From an uncultured Dehalococcoidia bacterium (lineage in GTDB: Bacteria > Chloroflexota > Dehalococcoidia > Lucifugimonadales > Australimonadaceae): DNA of 64,000 nt. Location: NCBI GenBank assembly GCA_958295525.1, contig OY282355.1, positions 967,504 through 1,031,503 on the forward strand, read 5' to 3'. Below the pieces are notes generated by a model that worked only from the letters and a program-made list of their open reading frames with translations, did not search any database and was not told where the DNA came from. A program made the translations under genes and the position numbers. Below, piece by piece: positions 1 to 50,682 of this stretch; within the stretch, counting starts at the first letter, position 1, and every line of letters begins with the position of its first letter.

Positions 1-2862
1 CCAATCGCGCACGTCGTCCTCATGGGTGAAGAGAATTACTTGAGTTGACTCGCTGATTGCGAGCAGCGTTTCGAGCGCCGCGTGCTTGCGTTCGGCGTCG
101 GACGCGCCCACTGCGTCGTCGAGGATGAGCGGGCAGGTCTCGCGGCTGCCGGTGAGATGGCGGGCGAGCGCAAGCCGCAGCAAGAGATACACCTGCTCCG
201 CCGTTCCGTGCGAGAGAAGCGCGGCGTCTCTCCGCTGCCCGCCGTCACCGGCCACCTCCACCCGCAAGGTGGCGGGATCGACCCAGCAGTCCGTGTAGCG
301 CCCGCCGGTGACTTGGGATAGCCGCTCCAGCACGGTCGATCTCAGCGCAGGCGCGATGTCGTTGTGAACTGTTTCTTGCGCCGCCTCGAGAAACTGGATA
401 GTCGTTTTGAGCGTCTGGTCTAGTCGACTCAGTCGGTGGTATGCGCGCTTAGCCTCGGCAAGTTCATCTTCGGCGTCCGCCACGCTCGGAAGGCTCTTCT
501 CAAGTTCTTCGAGTTGGCCGCGCTCTTCGCGCCAAGCATCCTCAACCTGCTTCGCCTCGCTTCGCAACGACTCCAGCAGGTCGTCGGACGGTTGCTCCGA
601 CTCAGCCTGGGCAAGGACGTTTTCCCCAACGTCCGCCGCGCGTTTGTCCGCGTCCGCCCGCAGGCGCTCCGCGTCCGCCCGCAGGCGCTCCGCGTCCGCC
701 GCAACCTCTTCCAACGATTTTTCGCCCAAGAGTTGCTGCAACTCATCCCATCGCCTGCTCCGCTCCTCGGACTCGACGACGCTTTGCTTGAGCCGCTCCT
801 GCCATTCCCGCAAGGCTTCCGCCAAACCCTCCGAGTCATCCACTTCGACTTGCGCGGCATCCGCAGCGTTCGCGGCATCCGCAGCGTTACGGAGAGCGTT
901 CGCCGCCGCCTCAATGCGCTTGCGGTCGGCAAGGCGCTGCTCATCCGCGCTCCGGCGCCCGGCGCGGTCGCGCACCCAGGCAATGCGGTTCTCCTGAGTT
1001 TCCAGATCCAATTCGGCAAGGCGTTCGCTCGTAAGGTTCCGCTTGCGCGCATCCGCCAGCATTTCCGCATCGGCGGAATCAACGAGGGCCGCCGCATCCG
1101 CCCGCAGGCGCTCCGCTTCCTCCTCAACCTCTTTGAGCGATTTTTCGCCCAAGCGTTGCTGCAGGTCATCCCACAGGTTGCCCAGTTTCTCGTTCTTTCG
1201 CAGGGTCTCACGGCGCGCTTCTTGCCAGCCGCGCAGGGCTTGCGCTTGCTCCGCCGGTTCCGCGGCGCCGACGCCGCAGGCGACGGCGGCATTCTCAAGC
1301 GCTTTCAGCGCGCCGGAACGCTGCTCGATTTCAGCCCGATAGCGTCTCGCCTCATTGCGTCGGTCTTCGAGTCTCTGAACGATGCCGTTTCTACTGGCGT
1401 CGAGAACGGCCTGTTCCCTCGCCGCCTGCGCCTGCTCACGCGAGCGGGCGGCCATAGGCAAAACGAGCGCGCCAATCGCAACGACGACTCCTACCGCTAG
1501 GACGAGCAAGCCGACCGTTCGGAGGTCGGGGAGGAAGGCCGCGATTCCGATTCCCGCCGCGCAAGCAGCCAGCGCGGAAGCCGCCGCTATGAGCGAGATT
1601 CTTGGAGAGGGCGGGCGGAGCGCCGCTTTCCTGTCGAAATCCGCGAGTTCCGATTCGATCTTTTCCACGCTCGCCCCTGCCGGTTCGCTGGGAAGATGGC
1701 GCGCTTGCCAGTATTCCCAGTCCTTGAGGGCGTCGTGGACTTGCACGTCAATTGCATGGTCGGCGGCGGAGGGACGCGGCGGCTGGCCGTCGGGGAAATG
1801 GACGGACAGTTCGCGGACGCGCTCCAAACGCCGCTCGGCGTCTTGCGCCTCGCGTTCAGCGACGGCGGCTCTCGCCGCGACCAGTTGATCGTTGCTCTCG
1901 GCGATCCGGCGATCATACTCCTCCACCGTCGGGCCGGCGGGCTCGGTCGGACTAGGCCGCGATGTCCAAGTGGTTAGCGCTGCGGTCACCTGCTCCGCAA
2001 TCTCATTGCCCTCCGGCGACGGGCGAGGCGCGCCCTCCGGGAATTCGCTGTCCAATTCCCTAACGCGCTCGATTCGGCGCTCGGCGTGGACGGCCTTCTC
2101 TTCGATAAGCGCCGCTTCAACGGCGTCCGCTTTGCGCTGGGCGTCTTGCAAGTCTTGTTCTCGCTTATCCACGCCCGCGCGGCGTTGCAGGTAGGACTCG
2201 TGAGATTCTTGCGCCCTCTTCAAAGAACTCTTTGCTTGGCCGGCTCTCTCTTCCGACTGGCGCAGCGGTTTCGTTGGGGCACGGTTGGAGCCGACTGTGT
2301 CTCTGCGGTAGTCGGCGAGTCGCGCGAGGGCGCGAGCGGCGGTTTCATCCGCGCCGGCCGTCGCGGCGGCGCGCTGCATACCCTCTTGGAGCATCTCCGG
2401 ATTGGAGAGAATCCCTAGTATGTCCGCTTGCCGGACGCAGGCCACGCTGAGGAACGTGCGGCGATTCAGTCCAAGCCAAGCGGAGCCGTCGGGCGCGCCG
2501 TCCCTGATGATCTCGCTCGAGTAGTCGCGGCCTGCGCGATTGGCGTCCCGCGCCCTGCTGTCCACTTTCCCCGCAAGGTCGTGCCGCAATTCCACGACGC
2601 GGCCGTCGTCGAGGGCGACGACCGCGCCGACTTCCCAGCCGCCCCCCGCCCACGGCTCGTGGCGTTCAGCAAACGCGCGGTCGTCCTTTGTTAACCCACC
2701 CTTACCGCGGCGGGCGCCGCAGAGCCCGGCGTAGAGCGCGGCATGCCAAGAGGACTTGCCCGCCTCGTTCGGGCCGTAGACGACGTTCATACCCGGGGCG
2801 AGTTCCAGCGTCTCGTCTTGGAACGGCCCGAAGGCATGCGCTTTCACGGACTCAAACCGCAT
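1..2862 (-). CDS. YhaN/SbcC-like AAA ATPase with coiled coils and central membrane hairpin (3' end cut by window)
   Basis: Read from the ATG at 2862, the frame stays open to base 1, so at most a few C-terminal residues seem to be missing. The N-terminus carries a Walker A, GPNEAGKSS (about residues 30-38). The middle is long charged heptad-like helix, including repeated ERLRADA units. Near residues 420-460 two hydrophobic stretches (SLIAAASALAACAAGIGIAA and LLVLAVGVVVAIGALVL) form a hairpin as in YhaN-type proteins. The C-terminus has an ABC-signature-like LLSHGTAEQVYLLLRLALAR, a Walker B PLILDDAV and a following FTHEDD. SbcC/Rad50-type ATPases act on DNA ends with an SbcD-type nuclease, and here the partner gene lies directly upstream: its TGA and this ATG share one base (TGATG). 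The membrane hairpin suggests the YhaN branch rather than true SbcC. The exact substrate is unknown. Confidence 0.88.
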   Translation of the reverse strand, partial: MRFESVKAHAFGPFQDETLELAPGMNVVYGPNEAGKSSWHAALYAGLCGARRGKGGLTKDDRAFAERHEPWAGGGWEVGAVVALDDGRVVELRHDLAGKVDSRARDANRAGRDYSSEIIRDGAPDGSAWLGLNRRTFLSVACVRQADILGILSNPEMLQEGMQRAAATAGADETAARALARLADYRRDTVGSNRAPTKPLRQSEERAGQAKSSLKRAQESHESYLQRRAGVDKREQDLQDAQRKADAVEAALIEEKAVHAERRIERVRELDSEFPEGAPRPSPEGNEIAEQVTAALTTWTSRPSPTEPAGPTVEEYDRRIAESNDQLVAARAAVAEREAQDAERRLERVRELSVHFPDGQPPRPSAADHAIDVQVHDALKDWEYWQARHLPSEPAGASVEKIESELADFDRKAALRPPSPRISLIAAASALAACAAGIGIAAFLPDLRTVGLLVLAVGVVVAIGALVLPMAARSREQAQAAREQAVLDASRNGIVQRLEDRRNEARRYRAEIEQRSGALKALENAAVACGVGAAEPAEQAQALRGWQEARRETLRKNEKLGNLWDDLQQRLGEKSLKEVEEEAERLRADAAALVDSADAEMLADARKRNLTSERLAELDLETQENRIAWVRDRAGRRSADEQRLADRKRIEAAANALRNAADAANAADAAQVEVDDSEGLAEALREWQERLKQSVVESEERSRRWDELQQLLGEKSLEEVAADAERLRADAERLRADADKRAADVGENVLAQAESEQPSDDLLESLRSEAKQVEDAWREERGQLEELEKSLPSVADAEDELAEAKRAYHRLSRLDQTLKTTIQFLEAAQETVHNDIAPALRSTVLERLSQVTGGRYTDCWVDPATLRVEVAGDGGQRRDAALLSHGTAEQVYLLLRLALARHLTGSRETCPLILDDAVGASDAERKHAALETLLAISESTQVILFTHEDDVRDW

Positions 2863-3965: not shown

Positions 3966-4750
3966 AATCGCGCGGGGCGCTCGATGACCATATCCTCGTA
4001 GCCCGGCTCCAAGTCCACTTGCAATTCCGACTGCAGCGCGGCGAGTTCCCGCAGCAGTTCGCTCTCCGTGCGAAGCGAGCGGTGGACGGCGATCAGCCGG
4101 GGAATCGCCAGCCCCGCCTCCCGCGCCGCGAGGATCTCTTGGCGCAGCATCGCGGGCGTCAGATGCCGCGCCTGCTCCGCCTGATCGCGCAGCCGGTCGG
4201 GCCAACTCACGTCCACCAGCAGAACGTCGGGCGGCGTCGGATGCGCGAAGAAGCCCATCAGCGCGCCGCCCGTGTCGCCGGAGAATCCGACGCGCCATCC
4301 GCCCGCGCTCACGATGTACCCCATCGTCGGGACGGGATGGTCAACGCGCAGGCCGGACGCCTCGTAGCCCAGGACCGTCCGCGTCTCGCCTGGAGCGAAC
4401 GGACGGAGCGCGAGGGGCGGGCGCCCCCCGGGCTCGCGGACGCTCGTGGAGTCGGAGTAGATGCGCCCGTCCAGCAGATGGGAGTAGATCACGCGGAGCG
4501 CGGCGGGCTCGCCGAGCGCGATCGCCGATCCGCCCCCGTCGCGCAGATTCAGGCCGAGCGTCGGCAAGTCGCGGCAGTGATCGTAGTGGGAGTGCGTGAT
4601 CAGAACGCCCTCCACGCGGTCTTGCTCGTCGAGGGCGAGCGCGCCCGTCAATCCGCCGGCGTCGACGGCGAGGCGGTCGTCAATCAGGAAGCAGGCGTGG
4701 CGGGCGCCTTGCGCCTCCATTTTGCGCGCGCCGAGGATGCGGACGTTCAT
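3962..4750 (-). CDS. MBL-fold metal-dependent hydrolase
   Basis: A 262-residue metallo-beta-lactamase-fold protein. The metal-binding motif is THSHYDHCRDLP (HxHxDH) near residue 53. Further ligands are probably the Asp in FSGDTGG and the His in IAVHRS near the C-terminus. The layout resembles class II cAMP phosphodiesterase/RNase Z-like hydrolases, but the substrate cannot be told from sequence. The ATG is preceded by GGAGG at 6 bases spacing. It lies 22 bp after the MetE-like gene and overlaps the SbcD-like gene by 4 bp, so it belongs to the same leftward operon. Its presence with a YhaN/YhaO-like pair suggests nucleic-acid or nucleotide chemistry, which is an inference from context only. 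Confidence 0.85.
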   Translation of the reverse strand: MNVRILGARKMEAQGARHACFLIDDRLAVDAGGLTGALALDEQDRVEGVLITHSHYDHCRDLPTLGLNLRDGGGSAIALGEPAALRVIYSHLLDGRIYSDSTSVREPGGRPPLALRPFAPGETRTVLGYEASGLRVDHPVPTMGYIVSAGGWRVGFSGDTGGALMGFFAHPTPPDVLLVDVSWPDRLRDQAEQARHLTPAMLRQEILAAREAGLAIPRLIAVHRSLRTESELLRELAALQSELQVDLEPGYEDMVIERPARL

Positions 4751-6194: not shown

Positions 6195-6373
6195 CGTCAT
6201 TCCCGCGCAGGCGGGAATCCCGCCCCCCATCTCCGTCGTTCCCGCGCAGGCGGGAATCTCGCATCCCCTATCGTCGTTCCCGCGTAGGCGGGAATCCCGC
6301 CCCTCAATTCGTCGTTCCCGCGCAGGCGGGAACCTCGCCCCCCAATTCGTCGTTCCCGCGTAGGCGGGAATCC
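6195..6373 (+). repeat. Cluster of five GTCATTCCCGCG inverted-repeat elements
   Basis: Five copies of the 25-bp element (consensus GTCRTTCCCGCGYAGGCGGGAATC) at about 6195, 6235, 6273, 6311 and 6349, all in the same orientation and spaced about 38 bases apart. Each folds as an 8-bp stem (ATTCCCGC/GCGGGAAT) with a short loop. They sit directly downstream of the stop of the giant gene. The spacers are short and resemble each other, so this is not a CRISPR array. Confidence 0.85.
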
Positions 6374-27343: not shown

Positions 27344-27485
27344 CGTCGTTCCCGCGTAGGCGGGAATCTCGCCCCCCCTGCCCCGTCATTCCCGCGCAGG
27401 CGGGAATCTCGCAGCCTGTCCCGTCATTCCCGCGCAGGCGGGAATCTCGCATCCTTGTCCCGTCATTCCCGCGCAGGCGGGAATC
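27344..27485 (+). repeat. Cluster of four GTCATTCCCGCG inverted-repeat elements
   Basis: Four same-orientation copies at about 27344, 27384, 27422 and 27461, filling the space between the small membrane-protein gene and the stop codon of the GIY-YIG gene. Confidence 0.85.
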
Positions 27486-27491
27486 TCGCCC

Positions 27492-27800
27492 CTACAGGAT
27501 GTCCTCGTAGAGGTCGCGCCACGACGGATTGGACTCCTCGATCAGCCGCGCTTTCCAAGCCCGATTCCACCTCTTGATAGCCTTCTCCCTGCGGATTGCG
27601 CTTTCCATATTCTCGTGCTGCTCATACCACACAAGCCTAGCGATGTTGTAGCGATGAGAGAAACCCTCTGCGGCGCTGGACTTATGCTGCCAAACGCGCT
27701 GGACGAGGTTGGAGGTGACGCCGAGGTAAAGCGCTCCGCCGGGTCTGCTCGCAAGGATGTAGACGCATGGCAGGCGCGGCGAACGGCGAGGCGGAGTCAT
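27492..27800 (-). CDS. GIY-YIG nuclease-domain protein (UPF0213-like)
   Basis: A 102-residue single-domain protein. The motif CVYILASRPGGALYLGVTSN is the GIY-YIG core in its VYIL...LYLG form. The downstream Arg in LVQRVWQH and the Glu in MESAIRREKAIKRW match the usual catalytic positions. The start at 27800 (MTPPRRSPRL) is chosen because a further 34 upstream in-frame codons read through a copy of the inverted repeat and look spurious. Stand-alone proteins of this size are common, and most have no known role. The gene is flanked on both sides by inverted-repeat elements, which suggests a mobile or recently rearranged locus. Confidence 0.85.
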   Translation of the reverse strand: MTPPRRSPRLPCVYILASRPGGALYLGVTSNLVQRVWQHKSSAAEGFSHRYNIARLVWYEQHENMESAIRREKAIKRWNRAWKARLIEESNPSWRDLYEDIL

Positions 27801-27830
27801 AATCCGCGCACCATACCAGTTTGGGATACG

Positions 27831-28145
27831 AGATTCCCGCCTACGCGGGAATGACGAAGGAGGAGGGTGGCGGACATGGGGGAACAAAAAAGGAGACTGC
27901 ACGCGAGCCCCAGCGCCCCCCCTGCCCCGTCATTCCCGCGTAGGCGGGAATCTCGCCCCCCCTGCCCCGTCATTCCCGCGTCGGCGGGAATCTCGCATCC
28001 TTGACAATTCCTCAAGAAGCGCCGTAACGTATGTCCTGACTCCCCCGGACGCTGAGGCTCCGGGTAGCGAGGCCGCTCTTCGGAGCGGTCGTCGCATTTA
28101 AAGGCCGCCTTGCAGACCAACGTCATTCCCGCGTAGGCGGGAATC
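27831..28145. repeat. Four dispersed GTCATTCCCGCG elements and a hairpin-rich spacer
   Basis: Copies at about 27831-27856 (minus orientation), 27920, 27968 and 28121 (plus). Between the last two lies a non-coding stretch with TTGACA at 28001 and two adjacent hairpins. No gene is apparent in this stretch. Confidence 0.75.
28040..28092. other. Two adjacent GC-rich hairpins (possible structured RNA)
   Basis: The first hairpin pairs CCCGGA (28044-28049) with TCCGGG (28059-28064). The second pairs GGCCGCTC (28071-28078) with GAGCGGTC (28083-28090) around a TTCG tetraloop. TTGACA lies about 40 bases upstream, but the -10 is poor. There is no T-run, so these are not obvious terminators. Confidence 0.3.
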
Positions 28146-34682: not shown

Positions 34683-34929
34683 CGTCATTCCCGCGTAGGC
34701 GGGAATCCAGTCGGCGCGCAAGCGCCGGACGATGCGCGTAGCGCATCGTCTCCAAATCACCCCCGGGGCCCCGTCATTCCCGCGTAGGCGGGAATCCTCG
34801 CCCCGGACGATGCGCGTAGCGCATCGTCTCCAAACCACCCCACGCGCCCCGTCATTCCCGCGTAGGCGGGAATCCAGTCGGCGCGCAAGCGCCCCCATTG
34901 CCCCGCCATTCCCGCGTAGGCGGGAATCT
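34683..34929 (+). repeat. Composite repeat cluster between the RNase D and methyltransferase genes
   Basis: This gap of about 420 bp holds four GTCATTCCCGCG elements (about 34683, 34772, 34850, 34904). Two copies of a second palindrome, GGACGATGCGCGTAGCGCATC, lie at about 34727 and 34804, both followed by GTCTCCAAA. The two families alternate, and a similar composite occurs at 39000-39112. The rest of the gap, to 35066, is C-rich and shows no gene. Confidence 0.8.
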
Positions 34930-37098: not shown

Positions 37099-38979
37099 AT
37101 GAGTCTCATCGCCAAACTCTTCAACCGCCCACAGCGCGACGCTCGCCCCAAGCCTCGCAGAGGCCGCGACGCGACGCGCTGCGCCTCCTGCGGCCACCAG
37201 CCGTCGCGCCCTGACCGCGAACGCAGGAAGGGCGCCACGCCCGCCCTCGCCCAGTTCCGCGACGACCCCGCCGGCTTCATCGCGCACGCCCTCCCTAACG
37301 CAGGCCAACCCTACGCCAAGCAGATCGAAATGCTCGACCTCGTCGCCAACCACCGCCGAATCTCCATCGTCGGTTGCAACGGCTCCGGCAAAGACTGGGC
37401 AGCAGCGCGCATCATCCTCTGGTGGCTCGAAACCCGCCCCGCCGCCAAAGTTGTCGTCCTCGCGCCGACGCAACGCCAAATCGAGTACATCCTCTGGCCC
37501 GAAATCGCAACCGCCGTCGCAAACGCCGACGTGCAACTCTCCGGCAAACTCACCAAGAGCCGCTACACCATCTCCGCCGACCGCTTCGGCGTCGCGTTCT
37601 CCACGAACAAACCCGACCGCGTGCAGGGCTTCCATTCGCCGCAACTCCTCGTCATCGTAGACGAGGCGCACGGCGTGGAGCAACCCTACATTGACGCGGC
37701 GATCCGCCTCAACCCCACGAAATTCCTGATGATCGGCAACGCCCTCTCACGCCCAGGCGAGTTCTACGATTCGCATCACGCCAAGCAGGTGGCCTACGCC
37801 CGCCTTCGCATCTCCGCCCTCGACACGCCGAATCTGATCGAAGGCGCCGAGCCTGTCCCCGGCCTCATCACGCCGGAGGACATCGCCGACAAAGCGCTCA
37901 TCTGGGGCGAAGATCACCCGCTGTTCCGCTCCTCCGTCTACGCCGAGTTCCCGGACGCCGAGGACAACTCGCTCGTGGGTCGCAAGGCCGTTGAGACCGC
38001 GATGGCGGAGTCCGCTCCGTCCGGCGCAGGCGCCCCCACGGAAGAGGACGATGCCCGCGAGCCCGTGTACATCGGCGTCGACGTCGCGCGGTTCGGCGCC
38101 GACAAGTCCGTGCTGATCGCAAGGCGCGGTCAGCGCGTGATCGCGACGAAATCGCTCGACCGCGAGATGGACACGATGCGCGTCGCGGGCGAGACGGCGC
38201 TGATGGCGAACGACCTCAACGCCGAGGCGGTGTTCGTTGACGAGAACGGAGTCGGCGGAGGCGTGTGCGACCGCCTGAAGGAGGTCGGCGCGCCCGTCTA
38301 CGGCGTGCAATTCGGACGCCGCGCCCCGCATCCGACGCGGTTCGCCAACCTGCGCTCCGAAATCTTCTGGGAGTTGCGCCGCTTGATGAACGACCATCTC
38401 ATCGCCCTCCCGCAAGACGAAATCCTCGCCGCGCAACTCCTCTCTTTGCGCTACGACGTCACGAGTTCCGGGCAAGTGAAGTTGGAGAGCAAGCGCGAAA
38501 CGCGCAAGAAAGGCGTGCCCTCTCCTGACCGCGCCGACGCTTTGGCCTTGGCGTTTATGCGCCCGCCGTCCCTCCAGATTTGGACGGGCTACGAGCCCTT
38601 CCTGCGCGCTCGCGCCCCTGCCGGCGTCCCCCTCCCGCCCCCCGCCCCTGACGACCCGCCAGACGACGATGATGATGGCGATGATGGTGGTGACCGTCAT
38701 TCCCGCGAAGGCGGGAATCCCGCATCCGTGACGGAGCGCGCAGCGCATCGTCATTCCCGCGAAGGCGGGAATCCCGCATCCCATAACGCCTCGCCGGGCG
38801 CCGCAAGCGCCTACGGAGATCGTCATTCCCGCGAAGGCGGGAATCTCGCCCCCGTGACGGAGCGCGCAGCGCCCCGTCATTCCCGCGTAGGCGGGAATCC
38901 CGCATCCCCTGACGCGGACGCGAACGCAGACGCCGCCTACGCGGAGGAAATCGCCCGCAACAGGTTCTTCGTAGGATGA
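37099..38979 (+). CDS. Phage-type terminase large subunit-like protein with repeat-encoded C-terminal tail
   Basis: A 626-residue protein. The ATPase half has a Walker-A-like GCNGSGKDW (about 92-100), motor strands KVVVLAPTQRQ and Walker B LLVIVDEAHG (about 184-193). The nuclease half starts at YIGVDVARFGADKS (about 324), has the second acidic cluster VDENGVGG, and ends near PDRADALALAFM. Terminase large subunits package phage DNA. Residues from about 515 are different: a Pro/Asp linker, then four in-frame copies of the inverted repeat read as RHSREGGNPA and RHSRVGGNPA, separated by VTERAA from the second repeat family. The tail is therefore repeat-derived. No portal, capsid or small terminase gene is nearby, so this is an orphan or domesticated gene. 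Confidence 0.85.
   Translation: MSLIAKLFNRPQRDARPKPRRGRDATRCASCGHQPSRPDRERRKGATPALAQFRDDPAGFIAHALPNAGQPYAKQIEMLDLVANHRRISIVGCNGSGKDWAAARIILWWLETRPAAKVVVLAPTQRQIEYILWPEIATAVANADVQLSGKLTKSRYTISADRFGVAFSTNKPDRVQGFHSPQLLVIVDEAHGVEQPYIDAAIRLNPTKFLMIGNALSRPGEFYDSHHAKQVAYARLRISALDTPNLIEGAEPVPGLITPEDIADKALIWGEDHPLFRSSVYAEFPDAEDNSLVGRKAVETAMAESAPSGAGAPTEEDDAREPVYIGVDVARFGADKSVLIARRGQRVIATKSLDREMDTMRVAGETALMANDLNAEAVFVDENGVGGGVCDRLKEVGAPVYGVQFGRRAPHPTRFANLRSEIFWELRRLMNDHLIALPQDEILAAQLLSLRYDVTSSGQVKLESKRETRKKGVPSPDRADALALAFMRPPSLQIWTGYEPFLRARAPAGVPLPPPAPDDPPDDDDDGDDGGDRHSREGGNPASVTERAAHRHSREGGNPASHNASPGAASAYGDRHSREGGNLAPVTERAAPRHSRVGGNPASPDADANADAAYAEEIARNRFFVG
38695..38900 (+). repeat. Four inverted-repeat elements inside the terminase coding sequence
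   Basis: Copies at about 38695, 38749, 38821 and 38875, all in frame and coding for HSREGGNP-type peptides. TGACGGAGCGCGCAGCG elements lie between them at about 38728 and 38855. The spacings keep the frame open to the stop at 38979. Confidence 0.85.
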
Positions 38980-38999
38980 GCGCCGCGATGAAAATTACG

Positions 39000-39200
39000 C
39001 CCTGCCCGCGAAGGCGGGAATCCAGACGGCGCGCAAGCGCCGGACGATGCGCGCAGCGCATCGTCTCCAAACCACCCCACGCGCATCGTCATTCCCGCGA
39101 AAGCGGGAACCTACTGGGAAGCGCACCCACGCAAAAGCGGGGAACCTGTGGTCCCGCCGGGGCGCGACGGGGGCGAGATTCCCGCCTTCGCTGGAATGAC
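39000..39200. repeat. Repeat-filled gap upstream of tldD
   Basis: Between the terminase stop and tldD (about 320 bp) are a partial element at 39000, the GGACGATGCGCGCAGCGCATC palindrome at about 39043, an element at 39087 and an inverted, slightly degenerate copy at about 39176. The final 100 bases before tldD hold AGGAG 9 bases before its ATG; no gene is seen. Confidence 0.75.
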
Positions 39201-39301
39201 GATAGGGGGGCGCACGCGCCGCGCAGGATCGGAATATGCGCCGCGGGGCGTAATCCGCTAAACTTGACGCCGCCGGGGAATTCCCGCAGGAGCCAAAACC
39301 T

Positions 39302-47686: not shown

Positions 47687-49141
47687 ATGATGAGACGCGG
47701 CATGCGGAGCGATCAGACGCTGTTCGAGCACGGACGGCGCGGACGCGAGGGGGAGAACGCCCCGCTCGCGGCGCGGATGCGCCCCCGAACGCTCGGCGAG
47801 TTCGTCGGGCAGCGCCATTTGCTGGGCGAGGGGCGCATGCTGGAGCGCGCCCTCCGCGACGGCCAGCCGCCCTCGATGCTGCTCTGGGGGCCGCCCGGGT
47901 CGGGCAAGACGACGCTCGCCCAACTCATCGCCGGCGCAACGAAATCGCGCTTCATCGGCGTCTCGGCGGTCACGTCGGGCGTCGCCGACCTGCGGAAGGC
48001 CGTCGAGGAAGCCCGCGAACTCCGCGCCACGGAAGACCTGGGCACGATTCTGTTCATAGACGAAGTGCACCGCTTCAACAAAGCGCAGCAGGACGTGATT
48101 CTCCCGCACGTCGAGAACGGGACGGTGACGTTCATCGGCGCGACGACCGAGAACCCGTCGTTCGAGGTGATCCCCGCGCTCCTGTCGCGCGCCCGGGTGC
48201 TCACGCTGCAGCCGCTGACCGGCGACGAACTGGCGCGCGTCATCCGCAACGCGCTCGCCGACAAGGAGCGCGGGCTCGGCTCCGAGCGCGCGTCGCTGGA
48301 GCCGGACGCGCTTGCCTTTCTGCAGGATGCGGCGTCCGGCGACGCCCGCGTCGCGCTGAACGGGCTGGAACTGGCCGTCGAGATCGCGCAGCCGTCCCCG
48401 GACGGCGCGAAGCGGGTGGACCGCGCGCTGATGGAGGAGGCGCTCCAACGCCGCGCTCCCCGTTACGACAAAGCCGGCGACGCGCACTACGACACGATCT
48501 CCGCGTTCATCAAGTCGGTGCGCGCCTCCGACCCGGACGCGGCGGTCTACTGGCTGGCGCGGATGCTGGAGGCGGGCGAGGATCCGCTGTTCATCGCGCG
48601 GCGCATCGTGATTCTCGCGGCGGAGGACGTCGGCATGGCCGACCCGATGGCGCTGCCCGTGGCGGTGGCGGCGCAGCAGGCGGTTCACTTCGTAGGGCTG
48701 CCGGAAGGGGCGATACCGCTCGCGCAGGCGACGGTTCACCTAGCGGCCGCGCCGAAGAGCAACGCCTCCTATATGGCGCTCAACCGCGCGATGGCGGAAG
48801 TTCGGGAAGGGCGTCAGCATCCCGTCCCCTTGCATCTTCGCAACGCCGCGACCGGCCTGATGCGCGGGCTCGGCTACGGCAAGGACTACAAGTACGCGCA
48901 CGACTACAAGGGGCATTTCTCCGGCCAGCGGAATCTGCCCGACGAAATCGCTGGGATGCGGTTCTACGAGCCGGGCGATCAAGGCTACGAAGCGACGGCG
49001 CGGGAGCGGTTGGATGCGTTGTGGGGCAAGGCGAAAGCCCCCGGCGGCGGACGGGCGGAAGGCGGGCGCGCCGGTCCTGCGGACGGGGGCGCCGCGCGGC
49101 GGGACGCGGATAGGCGGGACGCGGATAGCGGAGATTCGTAG
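47687..49141 (+). CDS. rarA: Replication-associated recombination ATPase RarA/MgsA
   Basis: A 484-residue clamp-loader-type AAA+ ATPase that acts at stalled replication forks. RPRTLGEFVGQRHLLG is the family N-terminus. Walker A is GPPGSGKTT (about 68-76), Walker B FIDEVHRFNK, and sensor region GATTENPSFEV. The C-terminal tetramerisation part contains HYDTISAFIKSVRASDPDAA and YGKDYKYAHDY, typical of RarA. A low-complexity Gly/Arg/Asp tail of about 40 residues follows and is unusual. It is transcribed divergently from the MoaD-MoaE gene with a 46-bp gap. Start could also be the ATG 15 bases later. Confidence 0.95.
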   Translation: MMRRGMRSDQTLFEHGRRGREGENAPLAARMRPRTLGEFVGQRHLLGEGRMLERALRDGQPPSMLLWGPPGSGKTTLAQLIAGATKSRFIGVSAVTSGVADLRKAVEEARELRATEDLGTILFIDEVHRFNKAQQDVILPHVENGTVTFIGATTENPSFEVIPALLSRARVLTLQPLTGDELARVIRNALADKERGLGSERASLEPDALAFLQDAASGDARVALNGLELAVEIAQPSPDGAKRVDRALMEEALQRRAPRYDKAGDAHYDTISAFIKSVRASDPDAAVYWLARMLEAGEDPLFIARRIVILAAEDVGMADPMALPVAVAAQQAVHFVGLPEGAIPLAQATVHLAAAPKSNASYMALNRAMAEVREGRQHPVPLHLRNAATGLMRGLGYGKDYKYAHDYKGHFSGQRNLPDEIAGMRFYEPGDQGYEATARERLDALWGKAKAPGGGRAEGGRAGPADGGAARRDADRRDADSGDS

Positions 49142-49204: not shown

Positions 49205-49233
49205 TTGCGCTCCCGTCGGCGATGGTTTACGAT
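49205..49233 (+). promoter_or_regulatory. Promoter of the structured-RNA unit
   Basis: TTGCGC (49205-49210), a 17-base spacer, then TACGAT (49228-49233). The same two hexamers with the same spacing occur before the SDR gene at 57527-57555, which supports both. Confidence 0.5.
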
Positions 49234-49312
49234 CAGAGTTGACCTGGGACGGCGGATGAGGCGGGAGGCGCCTTTAGCCGTCGGGACGCCATAGGGCGAA
49301 AGGAGGCACGCC

Positions 49313-49384
49313 ATGCGGATACGAGCCGTCTACGTAACGCTCCACCAGTGGCGCTTCCCTAGTTCGGCCCTCGCAGCGGCGTAA
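49313..49384 (+). CDS. 23-residue micro-protein ORF with a strong ribosome site
   Basis: AGGAGG lies exactly 6 bases before the ATG, the best Shine-Dalgarno in this region. The product reads MRIRAVYVTLHQWRF and ends PSSALAAA. The stop codon sits in the loop of a strong hairpin, an arrangement seen for the tag reading frame of tmRNA and for some leader peptides. The terminal ALAAA recalls the ALAA degron of tmRNA tags. Whether it is translated as a leader or is functional itself is unknown. Confidence 0.45.
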   Translation: MRIRAVYVTLHQWRFPSSALAAA

Positions 49385-49540
49385 GCGCCGCTGAGGGAGG
49401 GCAGCCGGAAACCGGAAGCTCCGCGCGATTAGAGCAGGCGGAACCTGCAAGCGATAAGCAGAGGCCTGAGTCCGGCAATGCATGCCGGGAGCGGCGACGG
49501 AGCGGAAGGCGAGCCCCGCGACTCGCGGGGCGCAACACAC

Positions 49541-49579
49541 AGCGCCGGAGAGGTCATTGGCCGCTCCGGCGCTTTCTTT
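49541..49579 (+). terminator. Rho-independent terminator
   Basis: A 10-bp stem, AGCGCCGGAG (49541-49550) with CTCCGGCGCT (49564-49573), followed by TTTCTTT. It is the most canonical terminator in the window and closes the structured-RNA unit. Confidence 0.8.
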
Positions 49580-49636
49580 GCGGCGATAGCGCCTAACTGC
49601 TGCGGGTGCCCCCTACCCTACCCCGCCCGCCGCCCC

Positions 49637-49828
49637 TTCGTCATTCCCGCGCAGGCGGGCGTGGCGTTTCCAGTAGGTTCCCGCTTTCGCGGGAATGACG
49701 GGGCAGGGGGCGCTTTGGAGACGGGGCGCTGCGCGCCCCGTCCGGGGGCGAGATTCCCGCCTTCGCGGGAATGACGGAGACCATGGGAGACGCGCAGCGC
49801 AAACGCCACGCCCGCGTAGGCGGGAAGG
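49637..49828. repeat. Mixed-orientation inverted-repeat elements
   Basis: Elements at about 49637 (plus), 49676 (minus, loop TTTC), 49749 (minus) and a partial one at 49808. A GACGGGGCGCTGCGCGCCCCGTC palindrome of the second family lies at about 49718. Nothing else is seen between the terminator and the DUF429 gene. Confidence 0.75.
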
Positions 49829-49833
49829 AAAGC

Positions 49834-50682
49834 CTAGCCCTCTTCCTCAGGAGCGTCCGCCGGCGGCGACGGCATCACGACGTAGCCCTCGCGGATGACG
49901 CCCGCGCCGTCGAGCGAGGGCGGCTCGCCCACGGCGTCCGCCTCGCCGACCCACAACTTGTGCGCCGTCCACGCCGCGACCGCCGCGTCCAACTGATCGT
50001 CGGTCGGCGCGGCGCCGTCCGGCAATCGCATGCCCAGCCCCGCCAGCATTTCGGCGCGGACGCGGCGCCCCTCCGCCGTGCGCTTCGCGGGCAGGCGCGC
50101 CCCGTCCGCCAGCGCCTTCCACGCGCCCCCCGGAAACGCCTCGATCAGCGTCGCGTCGGACGCCGGCGTTCCGTTGAGCCCCAGCAGACGAAACCGGCTG
50201 CCGCTCGCAACCAGCGCGGCGAACAGCCGAACCGACCCGGCGATCAGCCCCGCGTAAGGAGCGCTCCCCGGCTCCGGCAATGCGTAGGGCGTCCGCCCGG
50301 GCGCGCGAACGAGCCGCTCCGACTCCCGAACCTTCACGTCCGGCGCGCCGGCCAGCCCCTGCGGCCCGTCCACCGCCAAAATGAAGGAGCGGCCAATCGC
50401 CTGATCGGGAATGATTCGCGCGCCGTCCTCCCGGTACTCCCACTGGCCGAACGCGCAAACCAAATCCGCGTCCATCACGGCGTAGTCGCACGGGCGGGGA
50501 TTCCGCGCCGTCGGATCCGACAGATCGAGGCCGATGAAGCAAGGCCCGCCGGCGCCCCCGCGCTCGCCGACGCTCCGCATCGTGCGCCGCCGCCGCCACT
50601 TGGCGACGTACCGCACCGTCACCGCCGCCGCGAGCGCCGACGCTCCCGCCGCGCTGTAGATTCCCGTGCGCCGCATTCGCAT
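49834..50682 (-). CDS. DUF429 protein, predicted RNase H-like nuclease
   Basis: Up to 282 residues. The DUF429 core starts at CFIGLDLSDPTARNPRPCDYAVMD (first acidic residue of the RNase H-like fold in GLDLSD). It continues with SFILAVDGPQGLAG, SERLVRAPGRTPY and a C-terminal TDDQLDAAVAAWTAHKLWVGEAD, where the final acidic residues lie. Nuclease activity is only predicted for the family. The chosen ATG at 50682 adds a 34-residue Ala-rich, possibly membrane-inserting leader (YSAAGASALAAAVTVRYVAK); the ATG at 50580 would give a soluble protein. Neither start has a clear ribosome site. Confidence 0.75.
   Translation of the reverse strand: MRMRRTGIYSAAGASALAAAVTVRYVAKWRRRRTMRSVGERGGAGGPCFIGLDLSDPTARNPRPCDYAVMDADLVCAFGQWEYREDGARIIPDQAIGRSFILAVDGPQGLAGAPDVKVRESERLVRAPGRTPYALPEPGSAPYAGLIAGSVRLFAALVASGSRFRLLGLNGTPASDATLIEAFPGGAWKALADGARLPAKRTAEGRRVRAEMLAGLGMRLPDGAAPTDDQLDAAVAAWTAHKLWVGEADAVGEPPSLDGAGVIREGYVVMPSPPADAPEEEG

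Follow-up and report, generated by a model that had tools for sequence, protein, structure and literature searches.

The DNA analysed here carries a member of what is, with near certainty, a new family of RNAs that are at once coding and structured, a family absent from Rfam. The gene lies on the forward strand of the window, by which we mean the whole stretch of 64,000 nucleotides, and specifies an RNA of about 340 nt with a multi-stem fold. Comparison of related copies points to the layout of a transcription unit, a micro-ORF selected as far as a Pro codon at position 13-16, a covarying stem spaced from that codon, and a covarying core. The reading that we favour, albeit tentatively, is that of a free-standing dual RNA in which a ribosome pausing on the ORF before the stem sets the fate of a trans-acting RNA.

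Read from the sequence, the unit starts with a promoter-like site (49205-49233) consisting of TTGCGC (49205-49210), a 17-nt spacer and TACGAT (49228-49233). The hexamers of the predicted promoter are thus in place; as a promoter they are weak, matching the consensus at 3/6 (TTGCGC) and 4/6 (TACGAT) positions, and a consensus scan reported none at the locus. The position of the site is shared with relatives, which have TTGCAT..TTACATT within the genus and TATAAT or TATACT in G027, G059 and G060. Fold and alignment place a 5′ leader with local stems at 49239-49300, the sequence of which is unconserved beyond the genus. Direct reading confirmed the predicted Shine-Dalgarno sequence AGGAGG (49301-49306), the ATG six bases further on at 49313, and the ORF of 23 codons, MRIRAVYVTLHQWRFPSSALAAA (49313-49384, with the TAA at 49382-49384). 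GGAGG(U) is retained in nearly all copies, ORF-less paralogues included. Downstream of the ORF follow a large stem (49367-49402), a conserved box with the sequence CCGGAAACCGGA (49405-49416), for which relatives have CGGAAGCCGGA, the core, and an aligned GGAAGGCGAG box with a CCCCGCG/CGCGGGG hairpin (49505-49532); this hairpin is missing from some relatives. An intrinsic terminator (49542-49580), recognized from the fold, closes the unit with a stem at approximately 49542-49573, which covaries in relatives, and the tail TTTCTTT. At least two further hairpins and a terminator had been predicted, and core helix, core hairpin and terminator stem are indeed present, but a strict scan found no terminator at the locus. 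The RNA of the window folds at -187.4 kcal/mol, with z = -4.0 against dinucleotide shuffles, and two relatives gave z = -4.4 (L004) and -4.0 (L006).

BLASTN recovered the element from four congeneric genomes and fragments of it from others. Two covariance models, R1 for the core alone and the wider R2, were searched across the order, and 27 of 247 genomes matched at E <= 0.05. On inspection, 23 of the 27 carry the element with the micro-ORF and four lack it; the 23 span 11 families, and in public records the relatives carry the labels Dehalococcoidia, SAR202 or Chloroflexi MAGs. The loci were mostly found via the RNA core alone, and the convincing new ones all have the ORF, save second copies beside an intact one. 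The ortholog in G012, which R1 missed, was first located by synteny with rarA. Outside the order, samples of the class and the phylum gave no convincing covariance-model hits, the weak ones being without ORF; among 84,980 species, a core pattern produced hits in Acidimicrobiales and Streptomyces that are ascribed to chance, and no viral contig. A strict nucleotide pattern of Shine-Dalgarno plus HxWHFP matches the genus only, because wobble and Shine-Dalgarno variants break it. Close relatives, G008, G009, G010 and G013 among them, lack the element, and this patchy occurrence argues that it is dispensable. In these searches, the family was found in one order-level group within Dehalococcoidia.

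The motif [LI]-[YF]-[VE]-x-x-H-x-W-x-[FY]-P is encoded in 24 copies, with the Pro at residue 13-16; in the window, the conserved residues are 4-16, ending at the Pro of HxWx[FY]P. Examples are MGIRAVYVLHHRWHFPCTALPAA from the genus, MRRIALYVLSHRWHFPILSPTEA (G011), MVKLFVIYHAWLFPRVGPR (G027), MVKLFVANHKWIYPC (G051), MVRIYVIYHKWHFPQDRLISSQGSVI (G058) and MRRFELNHSWHFPCGAIAGRGT (G221). The peptides measure roughly 15-25 amino acids across the family, the ORF of G051 having 15 codons, and in 20/20 aligned peptides the distance from start to Pro is 13-16 residues, followed by a free tail of 1-25 residues. Over 13 codons, the substitution score in the ORF frame lay at z 24.7 above neutral simulation compared to -1.6 and 2.4 in the other two forward frames; as the sequence pairs are non-independent, these z values are to be compared with the other frames rather than taken as probabilities. 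Because H, W and P were used as the anchor, their invariance is partly built in; the seven codons before the anchor motif gave z 10.5, and the six codons past the Pro z -0.2. Consistent with these scores, pS was 0.69 and pN 0.30 for the micro-ORF. One reverse-strand frame reached z 7.8, yet stops interrupt the reverse frames in most relatives, and the reverse-strand ORFs were rejected on this ground. These comparisons indicate that the micro-ORF is a real peptide gene, with protein-level selection in one frame only that ceases at the Pro. No match to the peptide was obtained among Pfam and NCBIfam profiles, which have low power on 23 residues. The other frames contain stops and lack consistent conservation, leaving no conserved downstream frame, and a programmed frameshift element was rejected since the codons that precede the stem differ between copies (UUU CCU, UAC CCU, UAU CCA) and form no slippery site. 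The ortholog in G166 (L127, ~4020-4362) encodes RIFVQNHRWHYP in frame; its sole possible start after the Shine-Dalgarno sequence is ATT, and we tentatively suggest that this copy needs an ATT start.

In 20/20 compared ORF copies, 2-8 nt (median 6; 6 in the window) separate the Pro codon from the large stem, the dG of which ranges from -19 to -41. The 3′ end of the stem usually lies 0-4 nt from the covarying core, and in the window 3 nt before the core box. The two arms pair better within species than across species (-31.8 versus -25.4 kcal/mol, 0/5000 permutations). The original prediction described a 12-bp hairpin presenting the stop codon in its loop. The TAA of the window does lie in the loop of a stem, but the hairpin around it has 8 bp and is part of a longer interrupted stem. 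Nor did the stop-in-loop hold up as the key arrangement: among relatives the stop codon can fall in the loop or within the stem, and in G051 and G024 it precedes the stem altogether. This variable placement makes the stop-in-loop a by-product, the constant being how far the stem lies from the final conserved codon. Pairing of the Shine-Dalgarno sequence with the WxFP codons was rejected; the two appear complementary, yet the codons of other species fit equally well. The near-fixed spacing between Pro codon and stem points to an RNA made to engage a translating ribosome.

A nascent chain of 13-16 residues is still within the exit tunnel, and the conserved residues can therefore influence the ribosome in the way that arrest peptides do. 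From this geometry and the end point of selection we infer ribosome arrest. A ribosome translating HxWx[FY]P would pause or arrest there and sit right before the stem, which would be placed at the mRNA entrance of the ribosome on that Pro. Pause versus read-through would then decide whether the stem opens and, with it, how the RNA folds, how stable it is or how it is processed. The resulting RNA would act in trans, with a possible contribution from the released peptide. This proposal presumes a signal, an action in trans and a target.

Further evidence for structure comes from the core (49418-49504). Its closing helix GCTCCG/CGGAGC is paired in 98% of the cells of 32 aligned rows, with compensatory changes, and the covarying core hairpin CCGGC..GCCGG (49473-49490) in 95%, with double changes at 4/6 pairs. 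For the core as a whole, double changes were observed at 12/17 pairs, with 65 such cells compared to 21.7 in shuffles, in an alignment that was fitted to the covariance model and leans towards it, 3 of the 32 rows being weak hits. The comparison with related genomes proposed in the original prediction accordingly yielded both compensatory changes in the stems and conserved codons in the ORF. A candidate pseudoknot, GGAAGCC/GGCUCC, would join the conserved box at 49405-49416 with the sequence just 5′ of the core hairpin; 76% of its cells are paired with almost no double changes, and it might possibly form. A switch between terminator and core helix was rejected, as by inspection CGGAG is common only to the window's own family.

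Two boxes, GGAAGCC and GGAAGGYGAG, are conserved in the RNA, and together with a stand-alone gene ending in a terminator they would also suit a classical dual-function sRNA of the SgrS/SgrT type, in which core or loops pair with mRNAs and the peptide takes a related second role, with no arrest involved. That interpretation would give no role to the fixed distance between Pro codon and stem, and we consider it unlikely.

Six extra copies have no conserved peptide frame: one each in G006, G011 and G014, two in G015, and a tandem copy in G016. They retain the SD-like box, the core and the terminator, and each of their genomes also holds an intact ORF copy. The two RNA copies of G016 (L125:5438-5988) are arranged in tandem, and of these it is the second that encodes the conserved peptide, the first lacking it. 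Since ORF-less copies exist, the RNA may also function without translation, and their keeping the RNA hints at an action independent of the peptide. One somewhat doubtful possibility is that an arrest-peptide RNA parks the ribosome at the stem and senses or alters the state of the ribosome in trans, with the ORF-less copies as competitors or effectors. An ORF-less copy in L058 (1899-2010, minus strand) is found 208 nt upstream of a gene on the same strand (84-1691, minus strand), which encodes an ABC-F-like ATPase with two ABC_tran domains and ABC_tran_Xtn. ABC-F genes are often under the control of ribosome-sensing leaders.

Strong protein-level selection and a good Shine-Dalgarno sequence in nearly all copies might alternatively speak for a peptide gene first and foremost, with an active peptide of 15-25 amino acids (a regulator, a signal or a membrane-active peptide) and stems that merely protect and regulate its mRNA. 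This is not probable in our view: selection ceases at the Pro and the tail varies between 1 and 25 residues, neither a signal nor a membrane segment is evident, the roughly 190 nt of covarying RNA past the ORF exceed the needs of an mRNA tail, and the RNA is kept where the ORF is not.

In the window, the gene follows rarA (plus strand, ending at 49141) and faces a convergent gene (49834-50682, minus strand). The latter encodes a DUF429 protein (Pfam PF04250). The same-strand location downstream of rarA, in some cases with inserted genes, is shared by the window, the genus, G007, G006, G011, G014, G012, G015, G027 and G059; in G051, G063, G221, G016, G166 and others the element does not lie by rarA. 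At almost all ORF-bearing loci that could be evaluated, the gene that follows is convergent; the exceptions are contig ends and G060 with a same-strand ORF 149 nt downstream. These convergent neighbours vary by lineage and comprise a beta-eliminating lyase, an MFS transporter, a MobA-like protein and GTP cyclohydrolase I, as well as aminotransferase V, homocysteine methyltransferase and DUF429. A next gene that is convergent and lineage-variable argues for a free-standing gene and not for a leader. Two features of dual-function sRNAs are found here, namely a stand-alone gene with its own promoter and terminator, according to sequence and context, and a conserved ORF, according to selection on the predicted peptide. 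A palindromic 25-bp repeat, CGTCATTCCCGCGNANGCGGGAATC, has 32 copies in the window when up to 3 mismatches are allowed, where none would be expected, for example at 6195-6372, 27344-28145, 34683-34928, 38695-39201 and 49639-49776, with some copies directly after the RNA gene.

This context bears on a cis-acting leader, in which translation of the leader ORF would control the terminator; an unusual leader had also been suggested originally. A short ORF, stems and a terminator do make up the anatomy of an attenuator, and the ORF-less paralogue in L058, 208 nt before the ABC-F-like gene, and the same-strand ORF at 149 nt in G060 would be in keeping with one. However, the same-strand downstream gene that a leader-peptide attenuator requires is missing at nearly all ORF-bearing loci, where the next gene is convergent and differs by lineage. 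The attenuator was rejected for this reason and is largely refuted; we regard it as very improbable. A spurious origin, with a GC-rich intergenic stretch folding by chance around an accidental ORF, is refuted and has next to no probability: GC-rich DNA does fold readily and chance hits to the core occur elsewhere, but z values around -4, covariation, protein conservation in one frame and 23 genomes stand against it.

The RNA of the window has no match among known RNA families. A search with Rfam covariance models, the check proposed at the outset, gave no match to the RNA of the window at the curated gathering thresholds and only chance-level hits at relaxed thresholds. With covarying stems and an ORF conserved at the peptide level, this bears out the suggestion of a new structured RNA class or dual-function sRNA. 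The resemblance to tmRNA that had been remarked upon proved superficial. In line with the original prediction, no tRNA-like ends were found, ARAGORN reporting none in the window; RF00023 does not match, the stop-in-loop is unconserved, and the tmRNA gene of this genome lies elsewhere (G000:C1:797396-797746), so that this identity was rejected. RNase P RNA was likewise rejected, with no match to RF00010 and its gene located at G000:C1:1098910-1099305. 6S RNA was rejected as RF00013 has no match in the window and the multi-stem fold differs from a long hairpin with a central bubble. In 25 genomes of the order (G000 and 24 relatives) RF00013 gave no match, while several control genomes matched; 6S RNA appears to be absent from the order or very divergent in it. 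The 6S gene is possibly linked with rarA, and a literature search on this link found no paper.

Conserved ORFs occur on few small RNAs, and arrest peptides are familiar from leaders that regulate genes in cis. If our reading is true, nascent-chain sensing would control an RNA instead of a downstream gene. As the shortest peptides have about 15 residues, cell-free translation tests would be possible without culturing the organism.

The arrest-peptide leaders TnaC, SecM, ErmCL and SpeFL each control, in cis, a gene that lies downstream. They resemble the present RNA in their short ORF, in conserved residues that end near the peptidyl-transferase centre and in an RNA structure just downstream; in contrast to their control in cis, the gene described here stands alone, and its arrest is putative. 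It may operate like an arrest-peptide leader, yet it lacks what defines a leader in cis. The dual-function sRNAs SgrS/SgrT, SR1/SR1P and VcdRP likewise combine one small RNA and one conserved small ORF with an own promoter and terminator. To our knowledge, a stem at a fixed distance from the conserved codons is not known for them, whereas such a distance is found here. tmRNA (RF00023) is similar in size, internal short ORF and many stems, but the RNA described here has neither a tRNA-like domain nor an Rfam match. We class the RNA as a new family and as a variant of the dual-function kind. In Sinorhizobium meliloti, the trp attenuator RNA rnTrpL and its leader peptide peTrpL act in trans (PMC7298713). 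As in our case, a very short ORF is located on a small, structured and terminated RNA, and for peTrpL/rnTrpL the product was shown to act in trans (PMC7298713). There the attenuator precedes a biosynthesis gene, whereas the RNA described here has no gene behind it, and the two systems are unrelated in peptide, core and phylum. Among known systems, peTrpL is the nearest functional precedent.
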